64,000 bases of DNA from Algoriphagus boseongensis. GTDB taxonomy: Bacteria > Bacteroidota > Bacteroidia > Cytophagales > Cyclobacteriaceae. Below the pieces are notes generated by a model. That model was not told where the DNA came from. It saw only the letters and a list, made by a program, of their open reading frames with translations, and did not search any database. The position numbers were made by a program, and so were the translations under genes. Where the stretch lies: the NCBI RefSeq assembly GCF_004362805.1, contig NZ_SNYF01000005.1, positions 1,477,676 through 1,541,675 of the forward strand. Reading direction: 5' to 3'. Positions 8,036 to 25,523 of the stretch are shown here, piece after piece (position 1 is the stretch's first letter; every line of letters begins with the position of its first letter).

Positions 8036-10177
8036 TTATTGCTTTGGAAAAGACTTATCATAGGGAGGATCCAAGTTTGGGGCATCTTTTCTTGGACTGG
8101 TCTGCTGGAGAACTTGCTCAAAGGTCGGACTTTGGTCCACCCGATCTCCCAAGCCCCATTGGGATTTTGGTATACCAAACCAATTCAGCAGAGTGGAAAT
8201 AAAAGAAGTTGAATCAAAAGGCGTCTCCTGCCCAGATCGGATCACCGTCTTGGGGGAAACCCAAGGGGAAACGAAAATCGCAGGCACCCTCGGACCCAAT
8301 AAATCGAATCTAAATCCATCCGTACAGTCATTTGGCCATGGCTTCGCTGCATAAGGTGGCGCCACATGATCACAAAGTCCTCCCGGCTTGGAGAAGGTGA
8401 CAACCAATAGGGTTTCCTCCCAAGCAGGGCTATTCTTGAGCGTTTCGTAGATATCATTGAGCGATCGCTCGGCTGGCACGAGATTCATTCCTGGATGATA
8501 GGAAGTGGTACCATTGGGAGCCATCCAAACGGGTTCTATGAAACTGAAAGCAGGCAGATTGCCCTGACTAGCCTGAGCTTTGAAATTATCCACCGAGTCG
8601 ATGTAATTCCCCACCTGCGAATCAATGCTGGGTGCTTGTCCTTCCAAATAGAGGTGATAAGTGAACGGGTGTCCATTCCATTGGATGGCATTGAATATTT
8701 TCCAATCCTTGATTCCTTGATTGAGGAGCACCTTCCAGACAGAGGCCCGGTGCGGATATTGAGGCCAATTGGCATAGAGGCTGCCTCCTTCCCAAGTATC
8801 CAATCGATTCATCCCCGATCCACACATGGAGAAGGCCCGATTGATATCGGTCCCTCCCGGTACGGAGGAGAACCACCGATCACTAATGGCAAAATTTTTC
8901 GCCAATCCATTCAGGATAGGTAGCTGATCTGGAGTCAACGTGAGCATCACCCCTGTACTGGGATTATTGGCTACAAATCCCTTCATGTCCGGCTTGGCCT
9001 TTTCGGCATAGCCCGTTTTTTTGGTATAAAACATCTGCTGAAGCCCATCCGAATTGTCATGAAAGGGGTCTTGGGTCTGATCAGAAAGATCCCATTGGTC
9101 GCTAAGTACACCATCCTTAAACAAGGAAGGATATACCTTTTCCTCTCCTTTTAAGTTAAAGAATTTGGGATCTACCCCTTCAAATGGTTCGTGAGAACCA
9201 ATGGTATTCAGGTCTTTTTGATTTTTATCGTAGAGTAGGCCAACCACATTATCGAAAGACCGGCTTTCGGCCATATAGAACACCACGTGTTTGATTTTGG
9301 ATCTCATGTAAGCCATGGTTCCAGGCTTCGAGGAGTCAGCTTCGGTAGATTTGCCTGTATAGGACACTAAGGAGGAGAAATCACCCATTTCTTTTGGAAA
9401 TTTTCCTCTTTTGACCAAGGCTTTGAATGGCTGGGGATGAAGGGGATTGACCTCCCAAAGACTAAACTCCCCAGAGCCTGGAATCCAACTGAGAATTTTC
9501 CCATCTACTGCGAGCAGTTGATGGTCTGGACCGATTTGATCAAATTCCCCCTCTTTGATCGCGGGTATGGAAAGTGGAACAGGATTCTGTGGATCAAAAC
9601 TCCAAAGGCGGTAAGATTTACCTCCATTATGCCGGTCCAATACATAATTCCCCAATCGGATTAATTCATGGCCTGCCTGAATGGTAGGAAATCCACCCTG
9701 AGGCACTTGAAGATTTGGAATTGGATCCGAGGTATTAGGCTTGTCCAAATTCGGGTCAAAATTGTAAAGCATATAGGTGCCTCTACCTCTTCCTCCTACA
9801 AAAAAGAGCATAAAGTTGCCCAAGGAAATCAAAGGAATATGGTCCTGTTCATGGACGTCTTCGGAATAATGAGCCCGGTACCCCCAAAACTTTTTCACAT
9901 CCCAATACCCCTGCTGAACGGATTTTCCATTTAGAGGATCTTTTGAGTTGATGTCAGGAGTAAAAAGTCGATAAGGGTACAATTTCTGTGAGTCAACTGC
10001 GGTAGCAGGACCCCATTCTAACATAAAGCCCCCTACTTGAGCTAATCGATGATTTGGATCAAAACTGGCTGAAGGATCAACTGGTAATTGTTCAAATTGT
10101 GGGTTCCCATCAAAAGAAAACTGCCATATAGAATAAGATGATGATGATGGTTTTCTGGAAATCAGATAAGTGGACAT
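8036..10177 (-). CDS. Phosphoesterase-fold (phospholipase C/acid phosphatase-like) protein with N-terminal repeat domain; catalytic residues altered
   Basis: A 713-residue protein without a signal peptide. Residues 1-290 hold weak WSFDP / YNFDP / LWEVNP repeats (about every 50 residues), suggesting a beta-propeller. From about residue 297 (KIKHVVFYMAESRSFDNVVG) it matches the phosphoesterase family of bacterial phospholipases C and AcpA-like acid phosphatases; further conserved parts are VPGGTDINRAFSMCG and GGLCDHVAPPYA. Family members usually have ENRSFD and YDExGG at two metal/catalytic sites; here these read ESRSFD and FSKPGG, so ligands appear replaced and the protein may be inactive or altered. 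It is divergent from the glutathione operon (228 bp between). The cytoplasmic location is inferred. Confidence 0.82.
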   Translation of the reverse strand: MSTYLISRKPSSSSYSIWQFSFDGNPQFEQLPVDPSASFDPNHRLAQVGGFMLEWGPATAVDSQKLYPYRLFTPDINSKDPLNGKSVQQGYWDVKKFWGYRAHYSEDVHEQDHIPLISLGNFMLFFVGGRGRGTYMLYNFDPNLDKPNTSDPIPNLQVPQGGFPTIQAGHELIRLGNYVLDRHNGGKSYRLWSFDPQNPVPLSIPAIKEGEFDQIGPDHQLLAVDGKILSWIPGSGEFSLWEVNPLHPQPFKALVKRGKFPKEMGDFSSLVSYTGKSTEADSSKPGTMAYMRSKIKHVVFYMAESRSFDNVVGLLYDKNQKDLNTIGSHEPFEGVDPKFFNLKGEEKVYPSLFKDGVLSDQWDLSDQTQDPFHDNSDGLQQMFYTKKTGYAEKAKPDMKGFVANNPSTGVMLTLTPDQLPILNGLAKNFAISDRWFSSVPGGTDINRAFSMCGSGMNRLDTWEGGSLYANWPQYPHRASVWKVLLNQGIKDWKIFNAIQWNGHPFTYHLYLEGQAPSIDSQVGNYIDSVDNFKAQASQGNLPAFSFIEPVWMAPNGTTSYHPGMNLVPAERSLNDIYETLKNSPAWEETLLVVTFSKPGGLCDHVAPPYAAKPWPNDCTDGFRFDLLGPRVPAIFVSPWVSPKTVIRSGQETPFDSTSFISTLLNWFGIPKSQWGLGDRVDQSPTFEQVLQQTSPRKDAPNLDPPYDKSFPKQ

Positions 10178-10405
10178 GGGTTATAAAATTTAAAAACTTA
10201 GAAAAACTGAAAATAAGGAAGAATATCCTTCAGTAATTTAGAAATAATTCCAGTGTTTAAATTATTAATCTAAAAAAAGTAATAAATTAATCTTTGTTTT
10301 ATTCAATTCCCTAAAAAGGAAAAAATACCGAGCTGGCGAGCAATTGAATAAGCAAGAATCAGTTTTTTAATAAACTCTAATCTCAATCCATTTAGGTCAA
10401 ATCGG

Positions 10406-11206
10406 ATGTTTAACTATTTTGGATATGGATCAAATCTGAATCTCACCTCCCTAAAAGCCAAGGGAGTAATTCCCATTAAATCAGAGAAGGCTATTTTGAA
10501 AGGCTGGAAACTGGACTTTAATGTCAAGCATTGGTTTGACCACGAAGGGGGAATGGGGAATATAATTGAATCTTCAAATTCAAGGGATTGCGTTGAAGGT
10601 GTTTTGCATACTTGTCCTGATGAGCATCTTCATTCCTTGGATCTTCTGGAAGCTTACGGCATAGGGTATGACCGAATAGTGGTAGAGGTCACTACCCAAT
10701 CTGGTTCGGAAAAGGCCTGGGTTTATACGGGTCTACCACCTTATTTGAAAAATGGACTTCTTCCAACCAGAAGGTATTTAAATATCATTTTAAAAGGAGC
10801 AATGGCGGCTTCGCTGAGTGATCCTTACATAGAAAAGTTAAAAAATCACCCTGTTTTAGAAATTCCTACGCTACCGAAATTTGAATTTCCTGAAGGTTAT
10901 TTTCCCGTTTTTAAAGAAGAGGATTTGAAAAACTTTCCAAAATTCACCAGTCTTTGTGGAGCTGTATTTTCATTGGAAAATTCACGAATAGAATTTGAAC
11001 CTATAATTCCGATTTTTGGAGGAAAGGATTTAACCTTGTTCCATGCGAAAAGACATGATTCTAGTACTGGGGAAGAAACCCTGGAAGAAGTTTTGAACGG
11101 GAAAATTTCTTCTTCAGCAAAGAATTACCTTAATACCTACTTACATGCCTATGACAAGGAATTTAAACTTGTTGGAAAGCTTATTTACTCAAATGAAAAG
11201 ACTTAG
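10406..11206 (+). CDS. Gamma-glutamylcyclotransferase-like protein (GGCT/AIG2 fold)
   Basis: A 266-residue protein that begins MFNYFGYGSNLNL, the YGSNL substrate-loop motif of the GGCT/AIG2-like fold. A Glu in SLDLLEAYGIGYDR (about residue 81) sits where the catalytic Glu of cyclotransferases is found. The fold releases 5-oxoproline from gamma-glutamyl amines or glutathione. The protein is longer than plain family members; residues about 150-266 form an extra part I cannot assign. As first gene of an operon that also holds gshB and gshA, a role in gamma-glutamyl or glutathione turnover is likely, though not proven. The 228-bp upstream region is AT-rich and must hold the divergent promoters; I see no perfect TAnnTTTG. 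Confidence 0.78.
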   Translation: MFNYFGYGSNLNLTSLKAKGVIPIKSEKAILKGWKLDFNVKHWFDHEGGMGNIIESSNSRDCVEGVLHTCPDEHLHSLDLLEAYGIGYDRIVVEVTTQSGSEKAWVYTGLPPYLKNGLLPTRRYLNIILKGAMAASLSDPYIEKLKNHPVLEIPTLPKFEFPEGYFPVFKEEDLKNFPKFTSLCGAVFSLENSRIEFEPIIPIFGGKDLTLFHAKRHDSSTGEETLEEVLNGKISSSAKNYLNTYLHAYDKEFKLVGKLIYSNEKT

Positions 11207-11256
11207 TTTTATTATTTCAATTTTCAAATTTTCTTTACCTTTTAACTAATTTATCC

Positions 11257-11973
11257 ATGAAAAATTATCATCCACCAATGCCTCATGGACCTATCAAAGA
11301 AATTCTACCAGACGTTTTCTTTGTAATGGGAACCATGAAAAATGAATTTTTCGGATCCATGTGGCAGTTTAGCCGAAACATGACTGTTGTCCGGGAAGAC
11401 GGAAATCTTATCCTTTTTAACACCGTGAGACTCGGAGAAGATGGGCTCAAGGAGCTAGAAAAACTTGGAAAAATCTCCCATGTAGTCCGTATTGGAGACA
11501 TGCACGGAGTAGACGATCCATTTTACGTAGATCGGTATAAGGCGAAATTTTGGGCTATGCCCGGTATGAAAGTTCAAGAAGGATTAAAGGTCGATCATGA
11601 ATTAGTTGAAGGAGGTCCTCTACCGCTAAAAAATGCATCTTTATTCGTTTTTAGGACCTCTAAAAGACCTGAATGCATTGTTAGGCTAGATCGAGAAGGC
11701 GGAATCATGATCGCTTGCGACTCTCTACAAAACTGGATAGAGCCTGATGAATTCTTTGATCAGGAGACAATTCCAAAAATGGAAGAAATTGGTTTTTTCC
11801 AAACTGCCAATTTAGGCCTTGCTTGGATGAACGAATGTCAACCCCAGCCTGATGATTTTATCAGATTAAAAGAAATCCCTTTTGAGCATGCCTTTTGCGG
11901 ACATGGCTATCCATTTATTGGAAATGCAATGGCTTCATACCATGAGACATTCAAAAGATTCTTTAATATTTAA
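11257..11973 (+). CDS. Metallo-beta-lactamase-fold-like protein with non-canonical metal motif
   Basis: A 238-residue soluble protein. The pattern ILPDVFFVMGTMK near the start, RNMTVVREDGNLILFNTVRL (about 42-61), the HVVRIGDMHGVDDPFY loop (about 80-95) and CGHGYPFIG near the C-terminus follow the order of MBL-fold proteins. The canonical HxHxDH is replaced by DxHGxDD, so metal binding must differ or be lost. It lies 50 bp after the cyclotransferase-like gene and 3 bp before the giant kinase gene, so the three are surely one transcript. The substrate is unknown; glyoxalase II-like thioester hydrolysis would suit the glutathione context but is only a guess. Confidence 0.6.
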   Translation: MKNYHPPMPHGPIKEILPDVFFVMGTMKNEFFGSMWQFSRNMTVVREDGNLILFNTVRLGEDGLKELEKLGKISHVVRIGDMHGVDDPFYVDRYKAKFWAMPGMKVQEGLKVDHELVEGGPLPLKNASLFVFRTSKRPECIVRLDREGGIMIACDSLQNWIEPDEFFDQETIPKMEEIGFFQTANLGLAWMNECQPQPDDFIRLKEIPFEHAFCGHGYPFIGNAMASYHETFKRFFNI

Positions 11974-11976
11974 CTA

Positions 11977-14900
11977 GTGAAGAATAAGCCCGGCAAACTA
12001 ATTACAGAAAATATTCCCGGCTTTGTCGAGCTGGAAATTCTTTACAATTCCTATCCACATCTTCTTCTGAAAGGAAAAAGAATAAAGGATGGTAAATCCA
12101 TTGTACTGAAAACTCTTCAGGATAAATACCCGAAAAAGGAACATATCGCAGGCATAACCAGAGAATACCAGCTGCTTTCTAAAGCTCAGGTGGAAGGTGT
12201 GGTCGAAGTGTTTGACTTTTTCGGGTATGGCAATGGAAATGTTGCTATTGAAATGGAAAACTTTGGATTGTCTCTAGAAGATTATAGACATAGCCAAAGT
12301 CCAAAAAAAATCCCCCTCCCCCTTCTTCTTTCAATTTCCTTGAAATTGGTGAAAACCCTTGGGAGAATTCATGATAAGGGAATCATTCACAAAGATTTAG
12401 TTCCAAGGAACATTCTGGTAAATCCAGAAAATTTTGAGGTAAAAATTATTGATTTCAGCTCTTCAACGGAGCTTTCCAGAGAACATCAGGAAGTTACATT
12501 CCCCAACAGTATTTCTGGTTCATTGCCATATATTTCCCCAGAACAAACCGGACGAATGAACCGGGATATTGACTATAGGACTGATTATTACACTGTAGGA
12601 GTTTCCCTTTTTGAATTAGGCACCGGACAATTACCCTTTCAAGCTTCCGATGCATTGGAGTGGGTACATTGCCATATTTCCAAACCTCCAAAGGTTGCGA
12701 AAGAAATCGACCCTGAGTTCCCTTCAGCTCTTTCCGATCTTTTGGGAAAATTAATGGCTAAAAATGCAGAAGATCGTTACCAAAGTACCAAAGGAATATC
12801 CCACGATCTCGAGCAAATCAATAGTGCTTTCGAAGCAGGAGCAAAAGATTTTCCCCTTGAATTGGCTAAAGGAGATATTTTAGGAAAATTTCAAATTCCC
12901 CAAAAACTCTACGGTAGAGAAATAGAAATTCAAAAACTTGAAACTTATCTCCAAAAAGCTACCAATGGCTCTGCCGAATTTTGCTTAGTCTCCGGATACT
13001 CTGGAGTTGGCAAATCAGCTCTTGTCCATGAATTTGGAAGAACTGTAGCTCGAAAAAAAGGATTTTTAATCCAAGGAAAATTCGAACAGTTTCGTCAAAA
13101 TACTGCCTATAGTGCATTGGCAGGTGCTTTCAAGGAATTAATTCATCATCTCCTGGGTGAATCCAAGGCGCGATTGGATATTTGGTCCAAGCAAATAAAT
13201 GATGCTCTTGATCACCAAGGACAGCTCATACTGGATTTGATTCCGGAATTGGAATTGATCATTGGCAAACAGCCTAAGGTCCAGGAACTTTCCCCTTCTG
13301 AAAATCAAAATCGATTTTCATTAACCTTCCTGAATTTTGTGAAGGTTTTCGCGCAAAAAAATCATCCTCTCGTAATTTTCTTGGATGATCTTCAATGGAG
13401 TGACATCCCCACCCTCAATTTGATTAACAGACTTCTTGGTAGCCAAGAATTAGGCTATATCCTTTTGATAGGAGCCTTTAGAGACAACGCCGTGGATGAA
13501 GCTCATCCTTTGATGCTCACTCTGGAGGAAATAAAGAAAAAAAGGTGGGTGGAAAACATCACCCTTCCTCCACTTGGGCAATCGGTCATAGATCAAATTG
13601 TCCAAGACACTTTGCATTGCGGTGTTGAACTAGCAAATGATTTAGGAAAGGTTTTGATTGAAAAAACAGGAGGAAACCCATTTTATTCCATAGAATTTCT
13701 CAAAGATCTTCACTCCCAAAAAATCATTTCTTTTGACTCCTTATCTGGAAAATGGACTTGGGATCCTGAAAAACTTCAGGGGATTAGTCAAAGTGAAAAC
13801 GTGGTGGACTTCTTGGTGAAAAACCTGAGTAAACTACCCGAAAACACTCAAATAGCCCTTCAACTTGCAGCTTGTATCGGAGCCACCTTCGACCTCAAAA
13901 CCTTGGCAATGATCAGTAAGACCTCCATGGAGAAGGCAGCCGCTGATCTCTATGATGCCCTGATGGCCAATTTGATTTTCCCCCTTCATGAAAGCTATCG
14001 TCTGGTTGGTTTAAGTTTTGATCACGCAACTCAAAAACTTTATGTAGGTAAGGACCAAGAGGAACATCAGATCAACCCTACCTATAAATTTCAGCACGAC
14101 CGGGTACAACAGGCTGCCTACTCTACTATTCCAAACGAAAGGAAGGAATTAATGCATCTTTCGATTGGGAGACTTTTACTGCTACATTCCGATCAAATCC
14201 ACCTTCAGGAAATATTAATCGACGTAGTTGAGCACCTCAACAAAGGGAAAAATTGGATTACCGATTATGAAGAAAAATTTCAACTCGCTGAATTAAACTT
14301 AAAAGCTGGTATCAAGGCAAAACAATCTTCAGCCTACGATTCTGCACTTCAATACCTATTGATAAGTTTAGATCTTCTTGATGCGAAAACTTGGGAGACT
14401 AATTATCCTCTCATGTGGAAACTGGGCGAGGAACTTCAAAACTGCTTTTACTTAACAGGCAATCAAAAAGAAGCCGAAGAATGGTCTGAAGTGATACTTA
14501 TTCAGGCAAAAACCGATATAGAGAAAGGATTGGTCCTGGCTGCAAGAACTCGTCAATATGCCACCACAGGTAGAATGAAAGAATCCATTGAAGCTGCCTA
14601 TCAAGGACTGGGAATTTTAGGGTTCGATTTTATATCTAATCCAAGCAATGAGGATTTGGACAGGGAAATATACCTTTTGGAGCAAAAACTAGGTGAAAGA
14701 AGGGTAGCAGACCTGATTCATTTACCTGAAATGACGGATGAAAGAGCCCGAATTGCAAGCCAATTGTTGATGGAGACTTTCGCAGCAGCCTTTCTTTCTG
14801 GAACAGGTCGGAAGTTTCCATATTTAGTCATCAAGTCTGTCAACCTTGCCTTAACCTATGGAAACTGTCCAGAGACGGCATTTTCTTATGCTGGATATGG

Positions 14901-17388
14901 AATGATTCTTTGCGGGTATTTTGAAAACACAGCCTTAGGGTATCAATATGGGAAATTGGGGGTGGAAATGATAGAAGCTTATGGAGATATCGCCCTAAAA
15001 TCCCGTATTCTCTATGTATACACCATGTTTGTCCATCACTGGAGTAATCATTGGTCTTCCATGACTCCTTGGTTTAGGAAGGGAATAGATACTGGATATC
15101 AATCGGGAGATTTACTTTACTTGGCTTACAGTGCGCAGGATTGTATCATTTGGGATCCAAAATTGGATTTGGATACTGCCATACAAGAACAGATAAGGTT
15201 GCTGAAAATCGTCGCGGAATGCAATTACCAAGACTCCCTGGATTCAGGCACACTCTTCCTCCAAATGCAAAAAAACTTTCAGGGTAAAACAGAAGGCAAA
15301 TATTCATTAACCTCAAAATACTTTGACGAAGAAGCTTGCTTAAAAGGAATGAATGAAAGGCATTTTCTAACCGGAATTGCCAATTATCACATTTATAAGG
15401 CCGAAATACACCTGCTTTACAATGATCCTAAAGGGGCTCTCCCCCATGTCTTGGCTCAAGAAAATCTTATGCCATCAGTAATGTCCTTGCCTCAGTTGGT
15501 AAGGTTTCATATCGTGGCTTTCTTAGTTAGGTCGATGCTACTTCATGAAATCACGCAGGAGAATAAACGGAAGGAATATGTAAAAAAAATGGAGTACAAC
15601 TATTCCAAAATGTTCCATTGGGCAGAGCAATGTGAGGAAAATTTTGAACACCTCAGATGGTTTATGGAAGCCGAAATGGCGGGACATTTGGGAAAAGTAA
15701 GTGAAGCTTTACAAGGCTTTGAAAAAGCATTGTCATTTGCCCAAAAACATGGATTCCTCAGAGATGAGGCTATGATCAATGAGTTTGCTGCTAATTTCTA
15801 TATCCGAAATGGATTAGAAAAAGCATCAGAAGGCTATCTAAAGGCTTCCCATTACCTGTATTATCGTTGGGGAGCAATCAGAAAAACTGAAGAAATGGTT
15901 GCCAACTACCCTCAAATTTTAACTTCTGGAACACTCTCTAAAAGTCCTTCTCAAACTCAATCCATTCGACTCAATTCTTCCATCACAGAAGAATTCGGAA
16001 ATAATTTACTGGATATGAGCTCGGTATTTAGAGCCTCTCAGATGATTTCAGGAGAGTTGATTTTAGAAAAACTGCTTAAAGCAACTCTTCAGGTACTTTT
16101 AGAAAATGCAGGTGCACAGCATGGCTATTTGATAGAAAAGCGGGATGGGAACTTTTATATTCAAGCCAGCTCTTTGGAAAATGAAAACATGAAAGAGTCG
16201 TTTCTGGACTCCGAGAATATAGATTTTCTCCCTATATCCCTCATTAATACAGCCATTAGAACCAATGAGCCAATTGTGATTGCTAATGCCAGTCAATCCA
16301 ATCCGTTTTCTAACGACCCTTACATACTCAAATCAAAACCCCTATCTGTCCTTTGTATTCCTTTGACCACAAATAGGCAGTGGAAAGTGGTTATTTATTT
16401 AGAAAACAACCTCACACACAGTGCTTTTACAGAAGAGAGGGTCCAAATCATCAAGCTTTTAGCGGCTCAAGCAGCTATTTCTATTGAAAATTCCAGGATT
16501 TATGAAAATCAGGAAAAATTACTCAAAGCCCAGCAGAGATTTGTGCCCGATCAGTTTTTAGCCCATTTGGGGCATGAGGACATTTCTAAAGTTAGCCTTG
16601 GGGAATCAGTGGCGATGGAAATGAGCGTTTTATTTTCAGACATAAGGGACTTTACTCCACTGGTAGAAAAACTATCACCTGAAAAAGTAATCAACATTCT
16701 AAACCAATATTTTTCCAAAATCGGAAGTCATATAACCCGGGCTGGCGGTTTTATTGATTCCTATGCCGGAGATGAGATTCTTGCCTTATTCGCAGTTCCT
16801 TCTCAGAAGGCTTTAGAAGCAGGAATTAACATGGCTAAGGCACTTTATGAATTCAATCAGGAATCAGTTTCTTTAGGAAGGCCGATTTTAAAAATGGGAA
16901 TTGGTGTTAATACCGGGCCTTTGGTATTGGGTACCATGGGAGGAGATGACCGCATGCAATGTACCGTTCTCGGGGATACAGTTAATCTCGGGTCCAGAAT
17001 TGAAAATCTTACCAAAGTTTATGGTGCTCAGTTTTTGATCAGTGAACACACTTATTATTCTTTAGAAAACCCACAAGCATTTTCGTTCAGAAAAGTGGAT
17101 CGAGTTGCCGTAAAAGGAAAAGCAAAAGCAGTCGATCTATATGAGGTCCTGGATGCTGAATTTGAAGAAAGAAGGACTAAAAAAGAAGCTACCAAAGAAG
17201 TTTTAGCTGATGGATTGAAAGCTTATTATGCCAGGGATTTTGAAAAAGCATTGAATCTATTTGATTCTGGCTACAAACTTGACCCTGATGATCAGACATT
17301 TAAGATTTTCATAGAAAGATGTCAAAAATATCAAGAACATCCCCCTGGTCAGGAGTGGCAGGGTTATGAAATAATGCAGCATAAATAA
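11977..17388 (+). CDS. Giant signalling protein: Ser/Thr kinase - AAA ATPase - TPR-like - GAF - class III nucleotide cyclase
   Basis: An 1803-residue cytoplasmic protein starting with GTG, three bases after the preceding stop. Residues about 10-285: protein kinase (IHKDLVPRN near 137; DFS replaces DFG near 158; SPEQTGRMNRD activation segment). About 310-650: predicted ATPase with P-loop SGYSGVGKSALV (near 338) and a Walker B-like VIFLDDLQWSD. About 700-1330: helical repeats. About 1345-1510: GAF. About 1545-1725: cyclase with metal Asp in LFSDIRDFTP and YAGDEILALF and the transition-state Asn/Arg in DTVNLGSRIE, but Ser where adenylate cyclases usually carry the adenine-selecting Lys. Similar kinase-ATPase-GAF proteins are known from cyanobacteria and myxobacteria. 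It likely senses a signal for this operon. Confidence 0.9.
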   Translation: MKNKPGKLITENIPGFVELEILYNSYPHLLLKGKRIKDGKSIVLKTLQDKYPKKEHIAGITREYQLLSKAQVEGVVEVFDFFGYGNGNVAIEMENFGLSLEDYRHSQSPKKIPLPLLLSISLKLVKTLGRIHDKGIIHKDLVPRNILVNPENFEVKIIDFSSSTELSREHQEVTFPNSISGSLPYISPEQTGRMNRDIDYRTDYYTVGVSLFELGTGQLPFQASDALEWVHCHISKPPKVAKEIDPEFPSALSDLLGKLMAKNAEDRYQSTKGISHDLEQINSAFEAGAKDFPLELAKGDILGKFQIPQKLYGREIEIQKLETYLQKATNGSAEFCLVSGYSGVGKSALVHEFGRTVARKKGFLIQGKFEQFRQNTAYSALAGAFKELIHHLLGESKARLDIWSKQINDALDHQGQLILDLIPELELIIGKQPKVQELSPSENQNRFSLTFLNFVKVFAQKNHPLVIFLDDLQWSDIPTLNLINRLLGSQELGYILLIGAFRDNAVDEAHPLMLTLEEIKKKRWVENITLPPLGQSVIDQIVQDTLHCGVELANDLGKVLIEKTGGNPFYSIEFLKDLHSQKIISFDSLSGKWTWDPEKLQGISQSENVVDFLVKNLSKLPENTQIALQLAACIGATFDLKTLAMISKTSMEKAAADLYDALMANLIFPLHESYRLVGLSFDHATQKLYVGKDQEEHQINPTYKFQHDRVQQAAYSTIPNERKELMHLSIGRLLLLHSDQIHLQEILIDVVEHLNKGKNWITDYEEKFQLAELNLKAGIKAKQSSAYDSALQYLLISLDLLDAKTWETNYPLMWKLGEELQNCFYLTGNQKEAEEWSEVILIQAKTDIEKGLVLAARTRQYATTGRMKESIEAAYQGLGILGFDFISNPSNEDLDREIYLLEQKLGERRVADLIHLPEMTDERARIASQLLMETFAAAFLSGTGRKFPYLVIKSVNLALTYGNCPETAFSYAGYGMILCGYFENTALGYQYGKLGVEMIEAYGDIALKSRILYVYTMFVHHWSNHWSSMTPWFRKGIDTGYQSGDLLYLAYSAQDCIIWDPKLDLDTAIQEQIRLLKIVAECNYQDSLDSGTLFLQMQKNFQGKTEGKYSLTSKYFDEEACLKGMNERHFLTGIANYHIYKAEIHLLYNDPKGALPHVLAQENLMPSVMSLPQLVRFHIVAFLVRSMLLHEITQENKRKEYVKKMEYNYSKMFHWAEQCEENFEHLRWFMEAEMAGHLGKVSEALQGFEKALSFAQKHGFLRDEAMINEFAANFYIRNGLEKASEGYLKASHYLYYRWGAIRKTEEMVANYPQILTSGTLSKSPSQTQSIRLNSSITEEFGNNLLDMSSVFRASQMISGELILEKLLKATLQVLLENAGAQHGYLIEKRDGNFYIQASSLENENMKESFLDSENIDFLPISLINTAIRTNEPIVIANASQSNPFSNDPYILKSKPLSVLCIPLTTNRQWKVVIYLENNLTHSAFTEERVQIIKLLAAQAAISIENSRIYENQEKLLKAQQRFVPDQFLAHLGHEDISKVSLGESVAMEMSVLFSDIRDFTPLVEKLSPEKVINILNQYFSKIGSHITRAGGFIDSYAGDEILALFAVPSQKALEAGINMAKALYEFNQESVSLGRPILKMGIGVNTGPLVLGTMGGDDRMQCTVLGDTVNLGSRIENLTKVYGAQFLISEHTYYSLENPQAFSFRKVDRVAVKGKAKAVDLYEVLDAEFEERRTKKEATKEVLADGLKAYYARDFEKALNLFDSGYKLDPDDQTFKIFIERCQKYQEHPPGQEWQGYEIMQHK

Positions 17389-17470
17389 GAATAGACTTTC
17401 AGCTCAATAAAAAATAATTTTCTACCTTCCTTACTAACAATCATTTTTACTATTCATTGATCTTTTTTCT

Positions 17471-18442
17471 ATGACAAGACCCAAACGACTGGCGGTGGTA
17501 ATGGATCCAATGCAATCCATAAATCCAAAAAAAGACACTAGCCTAGAGTTAATGATCGAAGCCCAAAATCGGAGTTGGGAGGTTTTTTACCTGGAAATGA
17601 AAGATCTTTTTCTTAAAAATGGTGATGCAGAAGGACTGCTTAGAAAGGTAAAGCTTTTTAAAGATCAACAACCTTGGTTTGAAGAAGTAGCTACGTCCTA
17701 TGAAAAGCTATCCGACATCGATGTGATTTTAATGCGCAAGGATCCTCCTTTCGACATCGAATACATCATGGCCACCTACATTCTGGAAAAAGCAGAAGAG
17801 AGCGGCGCTTGGGTAATCAACAAACCTTCTTCTATTCGAGATGTAAATGAAAAAGTTTTCACAGCTTGGTTTCCCCAATGTTGTCCTTCGGGATTGATGA
17901 CCAGATCCATTGCTGAAGTCAGGAAATTCCTTACCCACCATAAGAAGATTGTGGTAAAACCAACTCATAAAATGGGCGGGCAATCCATTTTTATATTAAC
18001 TGAAGGAGATCCTAATACCCAAGTGATTTTAGAGGAAATTACTCAAAGAGGAACTGTTTTCATTGTTGCTCAAGCCTACATTCCTGAAATCAAAACTCAG
18101 GGAGACAAAAGAATCATTCTTATAGATGGAGAACCAGTCCCCTATGGAATTGCCAGAATTCCAGAAGGAGATGACCATAGAGGCAACTTGGCTGTAGGAG
18201 CATCTGCAAAAGGGTTTCCATTAAGCGAGAGAGATTTATGGATTTGTGATCAAATCAAACCTACCTTGAAAAAAAAGGGGCTCTTCTTTGTAGGGATAGA
18301 TGTCATAGGTGAGTTTATGACTGAAATAAATGTCACCAGCCCAACAGGAATTAAAGAAATAGACAAATTCCATGGAACGCACATTGCGTCTTTGTTCTGG
18401 GAAAAAGTTGAGGAAAAATTAAAAAAAAGGGCAGATGCTTAG
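17471..18442 (+). CDS. gshB: Glutathione synthetase
   Basis: A 323-residue ATP-grasp enzyme joining gamma-glutamylcysteine and glycine. It aligns with proteobacterial GshB throughout: AVVMDPMQSINPKKDTS at the start, DVILMRKDPPFD (about 85-96), GAWVINKPSSIRDVNEK, KPTHKMGGQSIFIL (ATP-grasp loop), RIILIDGEPVPYGIARIP and the end motif EINVTSPTGIKEID with the metal/ADP-binding Asn. The length is that of the family. The gene overlaps the following DNase II gene by 8 bp, so translation is probably coupled. Together with the GCS2-type ligase at 19505 it gives a complete glutathione pathway, which is unusual for Bacteroidota, where bacillithiol-type thiols are the more common expectation. Confidence 0.95.
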   Translation: MTRPKRLAVVMDPMQSINPKKDTSLELMIEAQNRSWEVFYLEMKDLFLKNGDAEGLLRKVKLFKDQQPWFEEVATSYEKLSDIDVILMRKDPPFDIEYIMATYILEKAEESGAWVINKPSSIRDVNEKVFTAWFPQCCPSGLMTRSIAEVRKFLTHHKKIVVKPTHKMGGQSIFILTEGDPNTQVILEEITQRGTVFIVAQAYIPEIKTQGDKRIILIDGEPVPYGIARIPEGDDHRGNLAVGASAKGFPLSERDLWICDQIKPTLKKKGLFFVGIDVIGEFMTEINVTSPTGIKEIDKFHGTHIASLFWEKVEEKLKKRADA

Positions 18443-19499
18443 TCCCCTCAGCAATCAGGAAGGGAACCCTGTAGATTGGTGGTTTATTTACAAGCTCCCA
18501 ATGAAAGTTGGGCCAAAAAAAGATTCTTCAGGGTTTGAATTTTTATATCTAGATTCATCCGGTAAGGAAATTGAATTCTCAAAAATTGGCCTGGACCACC
18601 CTGAGTCTGCCTTGGGACTGACCTTGGAAAAGATTTTTTCCGATGAAAAGGAAATTGGCTACGTGGCATGGAATGATGAAATCCCTCCCACACCAAAAAA
18701 TCCGGATCCAAAAAATTTGAATTCAAAGGGGCATAGCAAGGGAGTTTTAGCTTTTTCACCCAATACAAATTCTGGACTTTACTTGCTTCATTCTACTCCT
18801 AGGTTTCCGGAAATCGGAAAATCAGTGCTTCCTGAGAACGAACGAAAGTTTGGACAAACCTACATCTGCATAAGTCTTGAATTTGATGAAATCAGCAAGT
18901 TGGCTGATGTTATTCAAACCCATATTCAAGGGCAAGTTTATGCATCCAATTTACTTGGAATCGACAAAAATCATCCTTTGGTCAACCTAGTTGAAAACTC
19001 CAATAACTTAGAAGAGCCAACTCCTTCTGTGTTGGATTTAAAAAGCAAAAAGGAAGTTCAATTCAAGCATATTTCGAAAAGTAAAAAATGGAGCGAGCCG
19101 GATAAAGTGGACTCCAATGGCAAAGATTATTGGAAAGATTTAGTCGGACCTACTTTAGACTGTGATTTGGATGTAGAAACCTGGAGACGGGGAATGGTCT
19201 TTGGAGACCAAGATGAAAAGGATTCCAAAACCACGGAAGACATTGTAGATATTGATCTATCCAAGGCTGGGTTCCCTGGTTTCTCTTGGACTTTTGACCA
19301 AGACCATTCCAAATGGGGATTTTCCTGCGACAATAAATCATTTTGGGTAGTTATTGCTGATATTAATAGGCAAGTAAGCCAAGATAAACGGGGAGGCGGA
19401 GGACTTGCGTTTCAAAATTCCACGCTGAAGAATTTCTTTGAAGCGATTACTCAGGTTGAAAAAAAATTTGAAAAAGATATCCATAAGGATAATCCCTGA
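18435..19499 (+). CDS. DNase II family nuclease (deoxyribonuclease II, PLD-like HxK motifs)
   Basis: A 354-residue protein with the marks of eukaryotic lysosomal DNase II: an N-terminal VDWWFIYKLP, a first active-site HxK in KGHSKGVLAF (H100, K102) followed by GLYLLHSTPRFP, FGQTYICISL, SKSKKW...DYWKDLV, and a second HxK in DHSKWGFS (H291, K293) followed by IADINRQ and RGGGGLAF. The two HxK motifs form one PLD-like active site that cuts DNA without metal. Unlike animal enzymes it has no signal peptide, so it seems cytoplasmic and would need control. It overlaps gshB by 8 bp and is followed by gshA after 5 bp. Bacterial homologues exist but are rare; the role here is unknown. Confidence 0.88.
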   Translation: MLSPLSNQEGNPVDWWFIYKLPMKVGPKKDSSGFEFLYLDSSGKEIEFSKIGLDHPESALGLTLEKIFSDEKEIGYVAWNDEIPPTPKNPDPKNLNSKGHSKGVLAFSPNTNSGLYLLHSTPRFPEIGKSVLPENERKFGQTYICISLEFDEISKLADVIQTHIQGQVYASNLLGIDKNHPLVNLVENSNNLEEPTPSVLDLKSKKEVQFKHISKSKKWSEPDKVDSNGKDYWKDLVGPTLDCDLDVETWRRGMVFGDQDEKDSKTTEDIVDIDLSKAGFPGFSWTFDQDHSKWGFSCDNKSFWVVIADINRQVSQDKRGGGGLAFQNSTLKNFFEAITQVEKKFEKDIHKDNP

Positions 19500-19504
19500 A
19501 TTTT

Positions 19505-20863
19505 ATGGATTACAAAAAGTCTTCAAAACTCACAGAATCTGATTTTCGGGATTTCATCCAAACTAATCTATTTGAGCCCAAGATATGGGATACCAAAATT
19601 TCTGAAAAATCTCCCGGAAGGATTGGGTTAGAACAGGAGGCTTTTGTTTGGGAAACCCCATCAGACTCCCCTATTCCAAAAAAAATCATACCTCTGTATT
19701 ATGGCCAAAATGATTTTTCGAGCCTTTTACTGAAAATGAGTTTAGAAAAAGGAGGCCAAACCCATCTTTTTGAAAGCATGGTGGGACTCAAACCAGATCG
19801 AATAACATTTCCTTCTGGGGACAATTTTCAATTTGAGCCTGGAGGACAGGTAGAAATAGCAACTTCCCCCTGTGAAAGTCTAATTGAAGTCCAAAATCAA
19901 TTGGAAGCAATGCAATCAATTTTGGATGAAGTTGGAATCAAAAACCAAATAGGATTTGGGCAATTTGGAACCTTGCCTTGGTTTTCCGGCGAAGAAATAG
20001 GACTTCAACTTCCCAAGCCAAGATACCGACAGTTACAGAATTACTTTAATTCTTTAAATCCGAATGGACAAAGAATGATGCTTCAAACCTGTTCCCAGCA
20101 TATCAATATTGACTTGGGAGAAAATGAGGAAGTTCAGGTCCGGCGAATGGTAGTAGCTCAGGCTTTAGCTCCATTTTTAACGGCAGTATTTGCAAACTCA
20201 TCTCATTTGGAGGGAAAATTTACAGGTAAAAAATCCTATCGCAGTGTTCTTTGGAGAACCTTGGACTCCCGACGAAGCGGATTTTGGATGCCTCAAAATG
20301 AGATAAGCAAGAATGATTTAATAGATTCTTATACCAAATTTGCTCTAAATGCTCCATTGATTCACCTAAAGAAATGGGATCAAGAATATTTTGGCGGAAA
20401 ATTCACCATGAAGTATTGGATTAATAATCCTATTCTTGGCCTTTATCCCAGCTTGGAAGATTTTGAATATCACTTGACCTTGCTTTTTCCCCAGGTTAGG
20501 ATGAAAGGATTTTTAGAAATTAGAGCTACTGATGCTCTTCCCAGAAAGTGGCAAATGGTTCCTTCGTCCTTTATTTCTGGAATTTTGTATTTTCCAAGCT
20601 CACTTCAAAAAACCTATGATCTCTTAATCAATCACTTGCATCAGCTAGAAGATTTTCAAGATTTGGCAAGCGATGGACTTGACAATCCAGAGATTTTTAA
20701 GATGACTTTGAAACTATCAGAATGGGCTTTGGAAGGGTTTGAATCCCTTCCATCTTCTTTCAGATCCAATCAACAAGTAGAACTTCTTCGGCAATACCTA
20801 GAAAACTTAACCTGGAAAAAAATAACACCGGCAGATTTATTTTTAAGCTCACTTAATGAATAA
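19505..20863 (+). CDS. gshA: Glutamate-cysteine ligase, GCS2 family
   Basis: A 452-residue enzyme for the first step of glutathione synthesis (ATP-dependent joining of Glu and Cys). The GCS2-family signatures are GRIGLEQEAFVWE (about 39-51), FEPGGQVEIATSPCESL (about 117-133), GFGQFGTLPWF, MMLQTCSQHINIDLG and FLEIRATDALPRKWQM. It is of the plant/alpha-proteobacterial and actinobacterial EgtA type, not the E. coli GshA type. It starts with ATG five bases after the DNase II gene. Because EgtA uses the same chemistry for ergothioneine, the GshB gene two places upstream is the reason for choosing glutathione. Confidence 0.9.
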   Translation: MDYKKSSKLTESDFRDFIQTNLFEPKIWDTKISEKSPGRIGLEQEAFVWETPSDSPIPKKIIPLYYGQNDFSSLLLKMSLEKGGQTHLFESMVGLKPDRITFPSGDNFQFEPGGQVEIATSPCESLIEVQNQLEAMQSILDEVGIKNQIGFGQFGTLPWFSGEEIGLQLPKPRYRQLQNYFNSLNPNGQRMMLQTCSQHINIDLGENEEVQVRRMVVAQALAPFLTAVFANSSHLEGKFTGKKSYRSVLWRTLDSRRSGFWMPQNEISKNDLIDSYTKFALNAPLIHLKKWDQEYFGGKFTMKYWINNPILGLYPSLEDFEYHLTLLFPQVRMKGFLEIRATDALPRKWQMVPSSFISGILYFPSSLQKTYDLLINHLHQLEDFQDLASDGLDNPEIFKMTLKLSEWALEGFESLPSSFRSNQQVELLRQYLENLTWKKITPADLFLSSLNE

Positions 20864-20924
20864 CCTATTGATTTTCTGATATTTTGACTATCTTATTGGA
20901 TCTACATTTTAACCTAAACTTAGC

Positions 20925-21674
20925 ATGACTCCTACTCCTCTCCAACAAGTCATTCCAAAAATTAAATCATGTAATCTTCTCCCTATTGTAGTTTTTGATT
21001 TGGATGACACCCTTTACTCTACAGCTCGAAGAAATTTGATTATTATCCAAAATTTTGCCGCCGACCAAGGTGATAAATACCCGGATTTTGCCGCTATTGC
21101 TAGTAGTATTACACTGAAAGACATGAATTGGAGTGTAAGTTTGGCACTCACCAATGCTGGGCTTGATCCCAAAAGTCCATCCTTGGCTGCTTTTCTTATT
21201 TATTGGGGCAATACTTTTTTCACCAATGATTATGTTCAATTAGACCTTCCTAATCCGGGAGCAGTAGCTTTTGCAAATGCCTGCCATGACGCCGGTGCGA
21301 TGATCTTTTATCTTACTGGTAGGCATGAAGGTGATCCAAGTCTCAATAATGGGATGGGGCAAGGAACTACACTTTCTTTCACAGAAAGAGGCTTCCCATA
21401 TTGGCAAGGACGGTGTGAGCTTAACCTGAAAATCAATAAATCCGAAAAAGACGTGGATTATAAAAACAGGGTAATTACATCCATAAATTCCCTTAAAGGC
21501 GAGGTCATCGCAACATTTGATAATGAGCCCGCCAACTCTGTTTTATACTCCCAAAAATTCCCAAATGCACTTAATTTCTGGATGAAGACTACCTGGAATC
21601 CTGATGATAAGGCTCCCACGGATAATCTTTTAATAATTACTGATTTTTTGGATTGGAATATCGAAAGCGCTTAA
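20925..21674 (+). CDS. HAD-superfamily phosphatase-like protein
   Basis: A 249-residue soluble protein with the HAD motifs in order: motif I IVVFDLDDTLYST (nucleophile and acid Asp about residues 25 and 27), motif II FYLTGRHEGD (Thr about 128), a Lys in the DVDYKNRVI region, and motif III-like VIATFDNEPANS. It resembles HAD proteins that act on nucleotides or phosphoesters and that carry an alpha-helical cap between motifs I and II. The substrate is unknown. It is the seventh gene of the glutathione/DNase II operon, 61 bp after gshA and 11 bp before the last gene. Dephosphorylation of a nucleotide end product of the DNase or cyclase would be conceivable but is not shown. Confidence 0.8.
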   Translation: MTPTPLQQVIPKIKSCNLLPIVVFDLDDTLYSTARRNLIIIQNFAADQGDKYPDFAAIASSITLKDMNWSVSLALTNAGLDPKSPSLAAFLIYWGNTFFTNDYVQLDLPNPGAVAFANACHDAGAMIFYLTGRHEGDPSLNNGMGQGTTLSFTERGFPYWQGRCELNLKINKSEKDVDYKNRVITSINSLKGEVIATFDNEPANSVLYSQKFPNALNFWMKTTWNPDDKAPTDNLLIITDFLDWNIESA

Positions 21675-21685
21675 AAACAGGCACT

Positions 21686-22996
21686 ATGGAAACAATTACC
21701 TATACACTTGGAGATGCTAAAGACTTGGATCAACTTTTTCCTGATGCCAAGTATGCAGACCATAATTTAATGTTTCAAGACACCACGGATGTTATCCGGC
21801 ATTACACCAAAAACTCTATTCATGCAGACGGGATCGAGGGGGATATTGAGGTCAAAGTTTCTCTAAAAAAGGGAAAATATCAGATCGAAATTCTGGGATA
21901 CTATGATCTTATTCAAATGGAAAAGTTTAAGAAGAGACACCAACAAATCTTCAGTTCCGGATATGCTTTTAAGGCAATTCGAGGAAAGGAATTGATGGAG
22001 GAGTTTGGGGTATGGAATCCTATGGAAGGCTATCCGGTAAATTGGAATCCTATGGACGGGAAGTCAAAATGGACGCTTTTCCCACCTTTAGGCTTAAATG
22101 TAATGGGCCAAAAAGGGATGCTCTTGCTACACTATCCCCCATGGGCAGTACTTCAAGCAGGAACATTTGACAATGCCATGACCATGCAACGATGGAGTAG
22201 GCTATTAGTCCAAGCGGGGATTCCTGAAAATGAAATTAGCCGATACAAAACCTTCATCGATGTTAATCCGGTTGCTGCCCCAGGCTCAGGGGAAAGTGAA
22301 TATCCAAATGATTATATGCCCATCATGATGGCAAAAGCATTTTTTGACGGACCTTCAGATCGGGACTATATCAAATCCATGATGGAGCTTTATCTTACTC
22401 CGCCGGATTGGCCAGATGAGAATAAATACACTCTCCCAATATTGATTGGTGGTTCTCCACTTTATGACCCACAGTCTCCTGGATGGTTTAGAACTACTTA
22501 CACCGATATTCTCCCTCAAGATGCAAATGGGATTCCTCAGGTAAATGTGCTACAGGCAGGAAAATTCAGAGTTTATCCTCACTCGAAGCGTGAAACTCCT
22601 TACTTAATAGTGAATCACATGATTGCTGCAAGCGTAACCGGGCGCTGTACAAATAATCCAGCCGTAATGCCTGATATCAGACTTTATGAGGCTCAAGATT
22701 TGGTAGCAGCTACATTTTTGAAGATTTACAAAGACAATCCAAATTTGGATCCATTAGCAGTACGGGCAGCCGCCTGCAATCGTTGGTTCGGAAATACTGA
22801 CGGAAAAGGAGCTCCAACCCCTGCAGATGATCGGGATAAATTAATCCTTTGTGCTTTGGCCCAAATGGATTTATTCTTTGCACATGATCCAAAACCACAT
22901 CCGAAATACACTTTTGAGGAGGCTATGGAAAGATGCCAAAAAGCAAAGGACGAAGGAAATCCTTGCTGTCCAGACATCAAGCCTGATGACAGATAA
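21686..22996 (+). CDS. Unrecognised cytoplasmic protein with clustered C-terminal cysteines
   Basis: A 436-residue protein for which I recognise no family. ATG at 21686 was chosen because the in-frame start at 21653 lies inside the HAD gene. It has no signal peptide or membrane segment. The middle is rich in Pro, Trp and Tyr (GVWNPMEGYPVNWNPMDGK, LLLHYPPWAVLQAG, GGSPLYDPQSPGWFR). The C-terminal third contains HMIAASVTGRC, AAACNRWFG, LILCALAQMD and the end AMERCQKAKDEGNPCC, six or more Cys that could bind a metal or cluster or be glutathionylated. It is the last gene of the operon, followed by a bidirectional terminator at 23062. Confidence 0.7.
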   Translation: METITYTLGDAKDLDQLFPDAKYADHNLMFQDTTDVIRHYTKNSIHADGIEGDIEVKVSLKKGKYQIEILGYYDLIQMEKFKKRHQQIFSSGYAFKAIRGKELMEEFGVWNPMEGYPVNWNPMDGKSKWTLFPPLGLNVMGQKGMLLLHYPPWAVLQAGTFDNAMTMQRWSRLLVQAGIPENEISRYKTFIDVNPVAAPGSGESEYPNDYMPIMMAKAFFDGPSDRDYIKSMMELYLTPPDWPDENKYTLPILIGGSPLYDPQSPGWFRTTYTDILPQDANGIPQVNVLQAGKFRVYPHSKRETPYLIVNHMIAASVTGRCTNNPAVMPDIRLYEAQDLVAATFLKIYKDNPNLDPLAVRAAACNRWFGNTDGKGAPTPADDRDKLILCALAQMDLFFAHDPKPHPKYTFEEAMERCQKAKDEGNPCCPDIKPDDR

Positions 22997-23061: not shown

Positions 23062-23095
23062 AAAAAAGGTATAGTTGTGGACTATACCTTTTTTT
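23062..23095. terminator. Bidirectional terminator between the operon and tRNA-Pro
   Basis: GGTATAGT (23068-23075) and ACTATACC (23081-23088) enclose a 5-nt loop. An A run precedes and a T run follows, so it works for the plus-strand operon and for the minus-strand tRNA. Confidence 0.85.
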
Positions 23096-23096
23096 G

Positions 23097-23171
23097 TCGG
23101 GGTGACAGGATTTGAACCTGCGACCACACGCCCCCCAGACGTGTACGCTAACCGGACTGCGCCACACCCCG
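23097..23171 (-). tRNA. tRNA-Pro (anticodon GGG)
   Basis: On the minus strand the acceptor arms CGGGGTG (23171-23165) and CACCCCG (23104-23098) pair fully. The T arm reads GCAGGTTCAAATCCTGT. The anticodon arm is CACGT-CTGGGGG-GCGTG with GGG in the centre of the 7-nt loop. Position 73 is A and CCA is not encoded. Confidence 0.95.
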
Positions 23172-24632: not shown

Positions 24633-25523
24633 ATGATGAATCAATTTCAACTTATCCAAAAGTCCGGGATTATTCTTGGACTTTTGGCTATCCTAAGCCC
24701 TTTCTCCATTCAAGCCCAAAGCGGATGGACTAAAGCCAAAAAAGAGGGATTCTACCAACTCAGCTTTAATAGATTCTCCTCGGACGACTATTTTACTTTG
24801 GAAGGAGAAAAATTAAAAACCAATCAATTCACACAGAATTCACTTGTTTTTTATGGGGAATATGGGCTTACAGATAAGTTAACCGTGATAGCAAATTGGC
24901 CGCTTCAGGTTTGGAACGGATTTTCTTCCACCGAGACGGTCAGCGGGTTGGGAGATTTGAGACTGGAATTCAAGCAAGCGCTTTTGAAAAAATACGTGCC
25001 TCTTTCCATTTCTGTTGCGCCAGAGTTTCCGATTGGCAAAGCCAACAACTTTGCACAAAGCAAACTCAATGACTTTGAATCCATCAATTTGCCTTCTGGA
25101 GATGGTGAGTTTAATGTGTGGACTACATTGGCTACTTCCTTTTCCTTACCGAATGCTCCACTCTACGGGAATTTATTCGGTTCCTATAACTACAGGACTT
25201 CCTATCAGGATATCAGTTTTACCAATCAAATCGGTTTAGGAGTAGAATTGGGATATAAAATCGCTGATCTGGTTTGGATCAACAGCCGAATTAATGCCTT
25301 GACCTCTACCCAAGATGTACCCGTAGCAACAGACTTTGTAAGAGGAGACGGGACAGAATATACCAGCTATAGCTTTGGAGCTTCGGCGCCCCTATTCAAA
25401 GGAATCCACCTTTCTTTGAATTATCGTAATTATGCTGACTTCCTTTTTGAAAGAAAAAACCTCTATTCAGCGGGTACTTTCTCTTTGGGATTTTATTACG
25501 AACGAAAACCCAAGCAACCATGA
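24633..25523 (+). CDS. Outer-membrane beta-barrel protein (XagA-like/transporter-like)
   Basis: A 296-residue protein with a signal peptide (about 1-29, ending SIQAQ). The mature part is made of amphipathic strands typical of a 12- to 14-stranded barrel (LVFYGEYGLTDKLTVIANWPL, GLGDLRLEFKQALL, FNVWTTLATSFSL, YSAGTFSLGFYYERK). It resembles barrels annotated as XagA-like or phenol-pathway transporter-like, without certainty. It starts right after the DM13 lipoprotein stop and its own stop overlaps the next ATG (ATGA), so it is translationally coupled. Barrel plus DM13 lipoproteins suggests a surface-exposed redox or adhesion assembly; this is inference. Confidence 0.75.
   Translation: MMNQFQLIQKSGIILGLLAILSPFSIQAQSGWTKAKKEGFYQLSFNRFSSDDYFTLEGEKLKTNQFTQNSLVFYGEYGLTDKLTVIANWPLQVWNGFSSTETVSGLGDLRLEFKQALLKKYVPLSISVAPEFPIGKANNFAQSKLNDFESINLPSGDGEFNVWTTLATSFSLPNAPLYGNLFGSYNYRTSYQDISFTNQIGLGVELGYKIADLVWINSRINALTSTQDVPVATDFVRGDGTEYTSYSFGASAPLFKGIHLSLNYRNYADFLFERKNLYSAGTFSLGFYYERKPKQP

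Follow-up and report, generated by a model that had tools for sequence, protein, structure and literature searches.

This analysis concerns a compact gene cluster of Algoriphagus boseongensis (Bacteroidota; Cyclobacteriaceae), which lies in a stretch of 64,000 nucleotides (contig NZ_SNYF01000005.1 of assembly GCF_004362805.1, positions 1,477,676 to 1,541,675) of a 4.18-Mb genome; this whole stretch is referred to below as the window. Eight genes, all on the + strand, occupy positions 10406–22996 and are separated by gaps of 3 to 82 bp, with one overlap of 8 bp, between gshB and the DNase II gene (the last gene being counted from 21686). An earlier interpretation based on the letters alone (the sequence-only reading) had described them as a glutathione operon with an embedded DNase II and a giant kinase/cyclase. 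A check of the open reading frames bore out the positions, the strand, the dense packing and the overlap, and Pfam searches upheld the assignments of the cyclotransferase-like protein, the kinase-ATPase-GAF-cyclase, gshB, DNase II and the GCS2-type ligase (Table 1).

The other labels required some revision. The HAD label of the seventh product holds only weakly (PF03767 scores 20.9 bits, the cut-off being 27), and the MBL-like label of the second is plausible and unproven: no Pfam match exceeded the cut-off, and the UniRef names of two homologues ("MBL fold metallo-hydrolase") agree with it. The last product, previously listed as an unknown Cys protein, has the predicted alpha/beta fold of a uracil-DNA glycosylase (UDG). 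Its gene more likely starts with the ATG at 21686, 11 bp after the HAD gene, than with the TTG at 21653, which would produce an overlap with that gene, because the homologues begin at the former position. A divergent gene encoding a PF04185 phosphoesterase, a conserved partner of the operon, had been overlooked. In agreement with the stated lack of signal peptides, a Kyte-Doolittle hydropathy scan (no dedicated signal-peptide predictor was used) revealed neither a hydrophobic N-terminus nor a membrane segment in any of the proteins. As regards the terminator placed at 23062, a stem is indeed present, and it may serve either the operon or the convergent tRNA-Pro.

Table 1. The operon and adjoining features in the window
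Feature	Position	Strand	Evidence or remark
PF04185 phosphoesterase (phospholipase C / acid phosphatase superfamily), divergent partner	8036..10177	-	Pfam E 4.4e-53
Divergent intergenic region	10178..10405		Without a second UDG-like gene in the window; 4/8 relatives have one here
Gamma-glutamylcyclotransferase-like (GGACT/AIG2-like)	10406..11206	+	PF13772 and PF06094 over cut-off
MBL-like protein, fold unproven	11257..11973	+	No Pfam match over cut-off
Sensor: Ser/Thr kinase + AAA_16 NTPase + GAF + class III nucleotide cyclase, 1803 aa, GTG start	11977..17388	+	Pfam
gshB, glutathione synthase	17471..18442	+	NCBIfam NF003573, TIGR01380
DNase II	18435..19499	+	PF03265 E 3e-72
GCS2-type glutamate-cysteine ligase (gshA)	19505..20863	+	PF04107 E 1.1e-35
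HAD-superfamily phosphatase-like, weak	20925..21674	+	PF03767 E 2.9e-4, below cut-off
UDG-fold protein	21686..22996	+	Predicted fold
Terminator-like stem, between operon and convergent tRNA-Pro	23062..23094
tRNA-Pro, convergent to operon	23096..23171

In order to define the distribution of this arrangement, one genome per species was scanned with a DNase II alignment, which yielded 98 encoding stretches; the best 80 of these 98 are the loci counted below. The full order, i.e. the phosphoesterase gene on the opposite strand, followed by the cyclotransferase, MBL-like, sensor, gshB, DNase II, GCS2, HAD and UDG-fold genes, was found in eight of the 80 loci: six of Algoriphagus (L004, L005, L006, L008, L010 and L011) and two of Flavobacteriaceae, in Gillisia (L007) and Christiangramia (L009). 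All eight retain the overlap between gshB and the DNase II gene (1-17 bp), as well as the HAD gene. Loci L006 and L008 are near-identical, and the number of independent cases is therefore smaller than eight. In four of these relatives (L006, L008, L010 and L011) a second UDG-like gene is located between the phosphoesterase and cyclotransferase genes. In a Chitinophagaceae genome several of these genes are divided between two contigs: DNase II, phosphoesterase, GCS2 and UDG-like genes are found on the first, and UDG-like genes accompany the cyclotransferase and MBL-like genes on the second.

The sequence-only reading had proposed a comparison of gene neighbourhoods, allowing for an order unique to a single strain or a DNase II gene lying elsewhere in the relatives. 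In fact the order recurs in other genomes, DNase II occupies the same place in the eight relatives with the full set, and DNase II, GCS2/GshB and the sensor recur together; a single-strain oddity is thus ruled out by eight other loci. The conserved gene set is, as had been supposed, apparently an undescribed system. A literature search with little coverage of subscription journals found no paper on it, so that novelty is weakly supported. Each of the parts falls into a known family or superfamily; it is their combination and the UDG-fold family that are new.

A smaller core of the same genes is present in Pseudomonadota. In seven gammaproteobacterial loci (L016, L021, L023, L025, L026, L027 and L051) the genes for DNase II, the phosphoesterase, the cyclotransferase, the MBL-like protein and the sensor adjoin one another, and no gshA, gshB, HAD or UDG-like match was found in the stretch; in Nitrosomonas (L034) the same five core genes are joined by a UDG-like gene. 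A cyclotransferase or MBL-like match was detected in 16 of the 80 loci, and all 16 contain both genes together with the sensor gene. The commonest neighbour family of DNase II was the PF04185 phosphoesterase relative (34/80 loci). The glutathione genes, after which the operon had been named, do not form its core, since the Pseudomonadota versions lack gshA and gshB in the locus.

Because all of these loci had been found through DNase II, a reciprocal search was made with the MBL-like family. Matches were obtained in 16 of 369 genomes (of the class of Motiliproteus), and, the central genome apart, stretches of 12 of the remaining 15 were read. Two of the 12 (G717 and G952) contain the smaller core. 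In G717 (L134) the core genes lie in order, with DNase II, on a 3.4 Mb contig, and are split into many short frames, which represent either pseudogenes or sequencing errors. In G952 (L127) the MBL-like gene is surrounded by cyclotransferase, sensor, UDG-like and phosphoesterase genes, and the 18.5 kb examined there contain no DNase II gene. The core thus usually, but not always, has DNase II as its nuclease. In the remaining ten genomes the MBL-like homologue is not accompanied by the partners, and in several of them it lies close to the end of a contig. Mucilaginibacter agri has homologues of the UDG-fold and MBL-like proteins, whose contigs have the same length, and no DNase II was named for this species among the matches listed (at least 120). 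The constant parts are the big sensor, the cyclotransferase, the MBL-like protein, the phosphoesterase and at least one DNA-type enzyme. Most of the gammaproteobacterial loci are accompanied by a gene for a repeat-rich protein of ~575 aa (family c6; 11 loci, i.e. L016, L017, L018, L019, L021, L023, L024, L025, L026, L034 and one more); the one member tested (from L021) had no Pfam match and no signal peptide obvious by eye.

The sensor of the window carries Pkinase, AAA_16, GAF and Guanylate_cyc domains on a single chain, and the first three of these identify it as a kinase-STAND-GAF sensor. It contains sequences that we take to be the kinase motifs (HKDLVPRN, and DFS replacing DFG), the P-loop and the cyclase motifs, and the base-specifying lysine position of the cyclase is occupied by Ser. 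A comparison of four scanned sensors revealed the same kinase-AAA_16-GAF body with an exchanged output domain: (i) a class III cyclase (window and Gillisia), (ii) GGDEF (Motiliproteus), or (iii) HisKA-HATPase-receiver (Hahella). The domain order is that of known kinase-AAA_16-GAF multi-domain sensors, such as those named trifunctional Ser/Thr kinase/ATP-binding/histidine kinases; unlike these, the window protein has a cyclase output and is tied to one gene set, with GGDEF or histidine kinase outputs in relatives that have overlapping partners.

The class III cyclase is also reminiscent of Pycsar, a cyclase-effector phage defence (PADLOC PycC, 58.9 bits, sensor residues 1544-1697). In contrast to Pycsar, the cyclase is here one domain of a giant sensor, and the operon has no cyclic-nucleotide-binding domain recognized by Pfam and no PADLOC match outside the sensor. 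The sensor gave 42 matches in PADLOC-DB 2.0.0, of which the 25 shown all fall within the kinase or cyclase part. A Crp-like regulator with a cyclic-nucleotide-binding domain is encoded 2.5 kb downstream of the operon (25520-26131); it was rejected as a partner of the cyclase, being located beyond the tRNA gene and having no match in the L010 flank read.

DNase II is best known from lysosomes. The bacterial protein studied here matches PF03265 with 244 bits (cut-off 23), and its HxK motifs (H100-x-K102 and H291-x-K293) are invariant in 36 aligned sequences. It aligns with a solved relative, 5i3e, over residues 3-331 (phmmer E 9.7e-61), with the HxK motifs in register; 5i3e and 5unb ("Putative deoxyribonuclease-2" of Burkholderia, presumably B. 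thailandensis) belong to the same protein family. Within the taxonomic family of the host DNase II is rare (2 of 196 genomes). A signal peptide is predicted for DNase2 sequences, as a eukaryotic feature, in the cited part of PMC9208542. No signal peptide of this lysosomal type was found: the window protein lacks a hydrophobic N-terminus, and the N-termini of 20 homologues were judged by eye.

DNase II genes also occur in other surroundings. In eight loci (L029, L035, L037, L038, L041, L044, L052 and L058; five of them from Flavobacterium) DNase II and a PF04185-type phosphoesterase lie beside a molybdoenzyme family, whose tested member (L037) is of the xanthine-dehydrogenase type, and in five of the eight an XdhC-type family (tested in L035) is also present. 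In animals DNase2b adjoins urate oxidase, according to the cited part of PMC9208542, and a link with purine catabolism may therefore be recurrent. Another undescribed neighbourhood includes ferritin-like proteins (L003 and L022), a calcineurin-like phosphoesterase (L022) and tyrosinase (L003). Locus L003 is a plasmid copy from Burkholderia pyrrocinia, in which DNase II stands beside tyrosinase, GTPase and ferritin-like genes and not beside glutathione or sensor genes. The neighbourhood of L003, L022 and L032 includes protein family c25, one member of which has a faint UDG match; the L032 protein matches PF03167 with E 0.036, below the cut-off.

The fold predicted for the last gene product and its paralogue is that of family 4 uracil-DNA glycosylases and UdgX. 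The proteins differ from these enzymes in their low identity (7-14% in structural alignments), an extra N-terminal domain and a cysteine pattern of their own, and it is by predicted fold that the relationship is known. As candidates for the catalytic motifs and [4Fe-4S] cysteines of this superfamily, they contain APG and NH(P) stretches and a set of conserved Cys residues. A PDB profile search with the alignment gave nothing at E 10, no Pfam domain appeared among the matches listed for the homologues (at least 120), and in the fold search a family that is not listed is not thereby excluded.

The MBL-like proteins share invariant residues (H83, D86, D87, D155 and H216 in 15 sequences) that make up only part of an HxHxDH-type ligand set. 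Pfam searches with the window protein, one core orthologue and seven remote homologues gave chance-level matches only, the PDB profile search gave nothing at E 10, and no Pfam domain was found among the homologue matches listed (at least 120). The PF04185 phosphoesterase is extended at its N-terminus by about 290 aa and matches the acid phosphatase model TIGR03397 with 62.8 bits, below the cut-off.

The assignment of gshB is at the level of an equivalog (NF003573, 416.2 bits, cut-off 272; TIGR01380, 406.7 bits, cut-off 299.05) and is accompanied by Pfam matches to GSH-S_N/GSH-S_ATP. The ligase contains a GCS2 domain over the Pfam cut-off and does not reach the equivalog cut-offs (EgtA, 170.6 versus 370.8 bits; plant GCL, 146 versus 463.15); it is a distinct GCS2 branch. 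The gene pair resembles gshA-gshB of Pseudomonadota in that its GshB is likewise over the NCBIfam cut-off, and differs in its occurrence in Bacteroidota, in the GCS2 type of the ligase and in the DNase II gene inserted between both genes. Cited passages of PMC6282198 list gshA-gshB in Cyanobacteria, Proteobacteria, one actinobacterium and Eukarya, and predict bacillithiol for members of Bacteroidetes. The genome under study has BshC, and the operon gshB is its only glutathione synthase over the TIGR01380 cut-off. The one other GCS2 match of this genome was rejected as a genuine gshA, since it looks YbdK-like (by eye, not by family search). This YbdK-like carboxylate-amine ligase (G000:C1:1542433-1543269) is located just outside the window, between ATP-grasp-like and glutamine-amidotransferase-like proteins, which, by eye, form a separate gamma-glutamyl-type cluster.

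Among 59 sampled genomes of the genus, gshB exceeded the cut-off in three, which are exactly those with the UDG-fold gene of the operon (a fourth carrier, G130, lies outside this sample); six others gave a weaker ATP-grasp match (200-207 bits), probably of a different type. In the 46 DNase II genomes searched, gshB was over the cut-off in all 15 hosts of the core versus 13 of the 31 others, and the eight Pseudomonadota hosts have gshB elsewhere in the genome and no match in the locus. Given that the Pseudomonadota core lacks these genes and has gshB elsewhere, and that gshB in the genus is confined to carriers, the glutathione genes look like baggage of a glutathione-dependent module, enabling it to function in hosts without a glutathione supply of their own; the pattern fits such a need, with phylum as a confounder.

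Several comparisons bear on the mobility of the operon. The window PriA is 85-87% identical to that of four Algoriphagus operon carriers and 45% identical to that of Gillisia and Christiangramia, whereas the operon proteins show nearly equal values, protein by protein, with the Algoriphagus copies (41-71%) and the two Flavobacteriaceae (39-68%). The other Algoriphagus copies share, by protein, a mean of 54-83% identity with each other versus 42-70% with the Flavobacteriaceae. Between the eight proteins, the pairwise identities show correlations of 0.85-0.97, and in a tree of three core proteins Algoriphagus was kept as one clade (support 90/97), which was not rejected. In the window and in A. 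lutimaris (L010) the operon lies beside the same tRNA-Pro(ggg), and the flanking small proteins are 52-70% identical, i.e. about as diverged as the operon, so that this pair may share it by descent; no tRNA was found in the stretch read of the other seven full-order relatives. Transfer of the operon between the two classes is likely, though not proven; the claim relies on the PriA contrast and the patchy occurrence rather than on tree topology. Plasmid records contain one DNase II (that of Burkholderia, in another context) and three distant MBL-like proteins of Vibrio at 35% identity.

The explanation that we favour, tentatively, is that the operon may be a sensor-controlled module for attack on DNA within the cell, which in Bacteroidota brings its own predicted glutathione genes as it likely needs glutathione. 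The earlier suggestion that DNA is the target was plausible in itself and is strengthened by the fold predicted for the former "Cys protein". Judging from the protein families, the kinase-ATPase-GAF sensor would detect an internal cue, probably infection or a redox/electrophile signal, and pass it on by phosphorylation and through its exchangeable output domain. The UDG-fold protein or proteins might then bind or excise DNA bases, and DNase II, acting in the absence of metal, would cleave the strand to leave 3'-phosphate ends. Removal of phosphates by the PF04185 phosphoesterase and the HAD protein, or an attack of these proteins on phospholipid, could prevent simple re-ligation of the damage. 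GshA and GshB would supply glutathione and the cyclotransferase would degrade it; this thiol may hold the DNase or the cysteine-rich UDG-fold protein in an inactive or intact form until there is a shift in thiol state, and on our reading glutathione is a cofactor or safety catch of the DNA attack.

A more specific version, which we consider doubtful, is a horizontally spread defence or cell-suicide system with an interchangeable-output STAND kinase sensor that has a DNA glycosylase-like protein paired with DNase II, and a phosphoesterase, under its command, gated by glutathione via the gamma-glutamylcyclotransferase and introducing glutathione synthesis into bacillithiol users. None of the observations links the module directly to phage defence.

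Several observations weigh against a DNA-attack module. The PF03167 (UDG) profile, at E up to 10, matched neither the window protein nor six relatives, and the second UDG-like gene is optional, since the window and four of the eight relatives are without it. DNase II itself is missing from the core of L127, and in A. boritolerans (L002, L011) its gene has one in-frame stop, with the neighbouring gshB and GCS2 frames open, which suggests that its loss is possible. Eukaryotic DNase II has an acidic optimum (cited parts of PMC9208542 and PMC11430429), so that a cytosolic bacterial enzyme might be idle at neutral pH. No gene of the operon is recognizable by Pfam as an immunity or antitoxin gene, and in PADLOC-DB 2.0.0 (E 0.01) eight of the nine proteins had no match, the sensor matches shown being only generic kinase/cyclase ones. 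Viral contigs hold no relatives of the DNase II, UDG-fold or MBL-like proteins, and phage cargo was rejected as far as these contigs go; plasmids hold no UDG-fold relatives, and plasmid cargo was likewise rejected for these proteins. Pseudomonadota generally have gshB, and the correlation with glutathione is therefore confounded in this phylum. Finally, the DNase II-phosphoesterase pairs beside the xanthine-dehydrogenase-type family favour salvage.

Salvage of nucleic acid or phosphoester is the main rival, although we judge it rather unlikely. DNase II would produce pieces with 3'-phosphates, the phosphoesterase and HAD protein would free phosphate, the UDG-fold protein would free bases, and the sensor would report the supply of phosphate or nucleotides. 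Besides the eight loci just mentioned, the frequency of the phosphoesterase as a DNase II neighbour, the calcineurin-like phosphoesterase near the L022 DNase II and the sub-threshold resemblance of the window phosphoesterase to acid phosphatase all point this way. Food DNA is extracellular, yet no product has a secretion signal by hydropathy; moreover, salvage has no need for glutathione synthesis, a cyclotransferase or an 1803-aa STAND-type sensor, and the patchy occurrence within one genus (3/59) does not suit it.

A pathway of metabolism or biosynthesis is fairly improbable; here the substrate of the UDG-fold, MBL-like and cyclotransferase proteins would be a small nucleoside or gamma-glutamyl compound, the DNase II and phospholipase C folds having been recruited to non-DNA substrates. 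GGACT-like enzymes do act on gamma-glutamyl groups, the UDG-fold protein has its own set of conserved cysteines and no Pfam UDG match, and some other DNase II loci contain ferritin-like proteins and tyrosinase; these neighbouring oxidases are, however, outside the operon of the window, the HxK motifs of DNase II are invariant, and no carrier or export domain was found among the Pfam matches of the operon.

The proteins could also be antibacterial effectors (a DNase, a phospholipase-like and a glycosylase-like protein) that a type VI-like or contractile machine would inject into competitors. Sets of cytosolic-looking DNases and phospholipase-like proteins are typical effector cargo, and the Pseudomonadota versions add the beta-rich repeat protein of family c6, but the lack of an immunity gene recognized by Pfam, together with a sensor and glutathione genes that do not fit, makes this very improbable. 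An ordinary glutathione/redox operon with a chance insertion of DNase II, in line with the rarity of this enzyme in the taxonomic family, is largely refuted by the same order and overlap in eight of eight relatives, the correlated identities of the eight proteins, and the presence of DNase II with the core in those Pseudomonadota loci that have no gshA/gshB.

Elsewhere in the window, positions 3883-4503 encode a hexapeptide acetyltransferase near the Vat family (287.4 bits, cut-off 300).

The core is common to Bacteroidota and Pseudomonadota and provides a context for bacterial DNase II. The module also suggests that a low-molecular-weight thiol pathway may travel with an accessory system in order to supply its cofactor. 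If destruction of DNA upon a sensor trigger proves to be true, the module is likely to represent an undescribed bacterial defence or self-destruct device.

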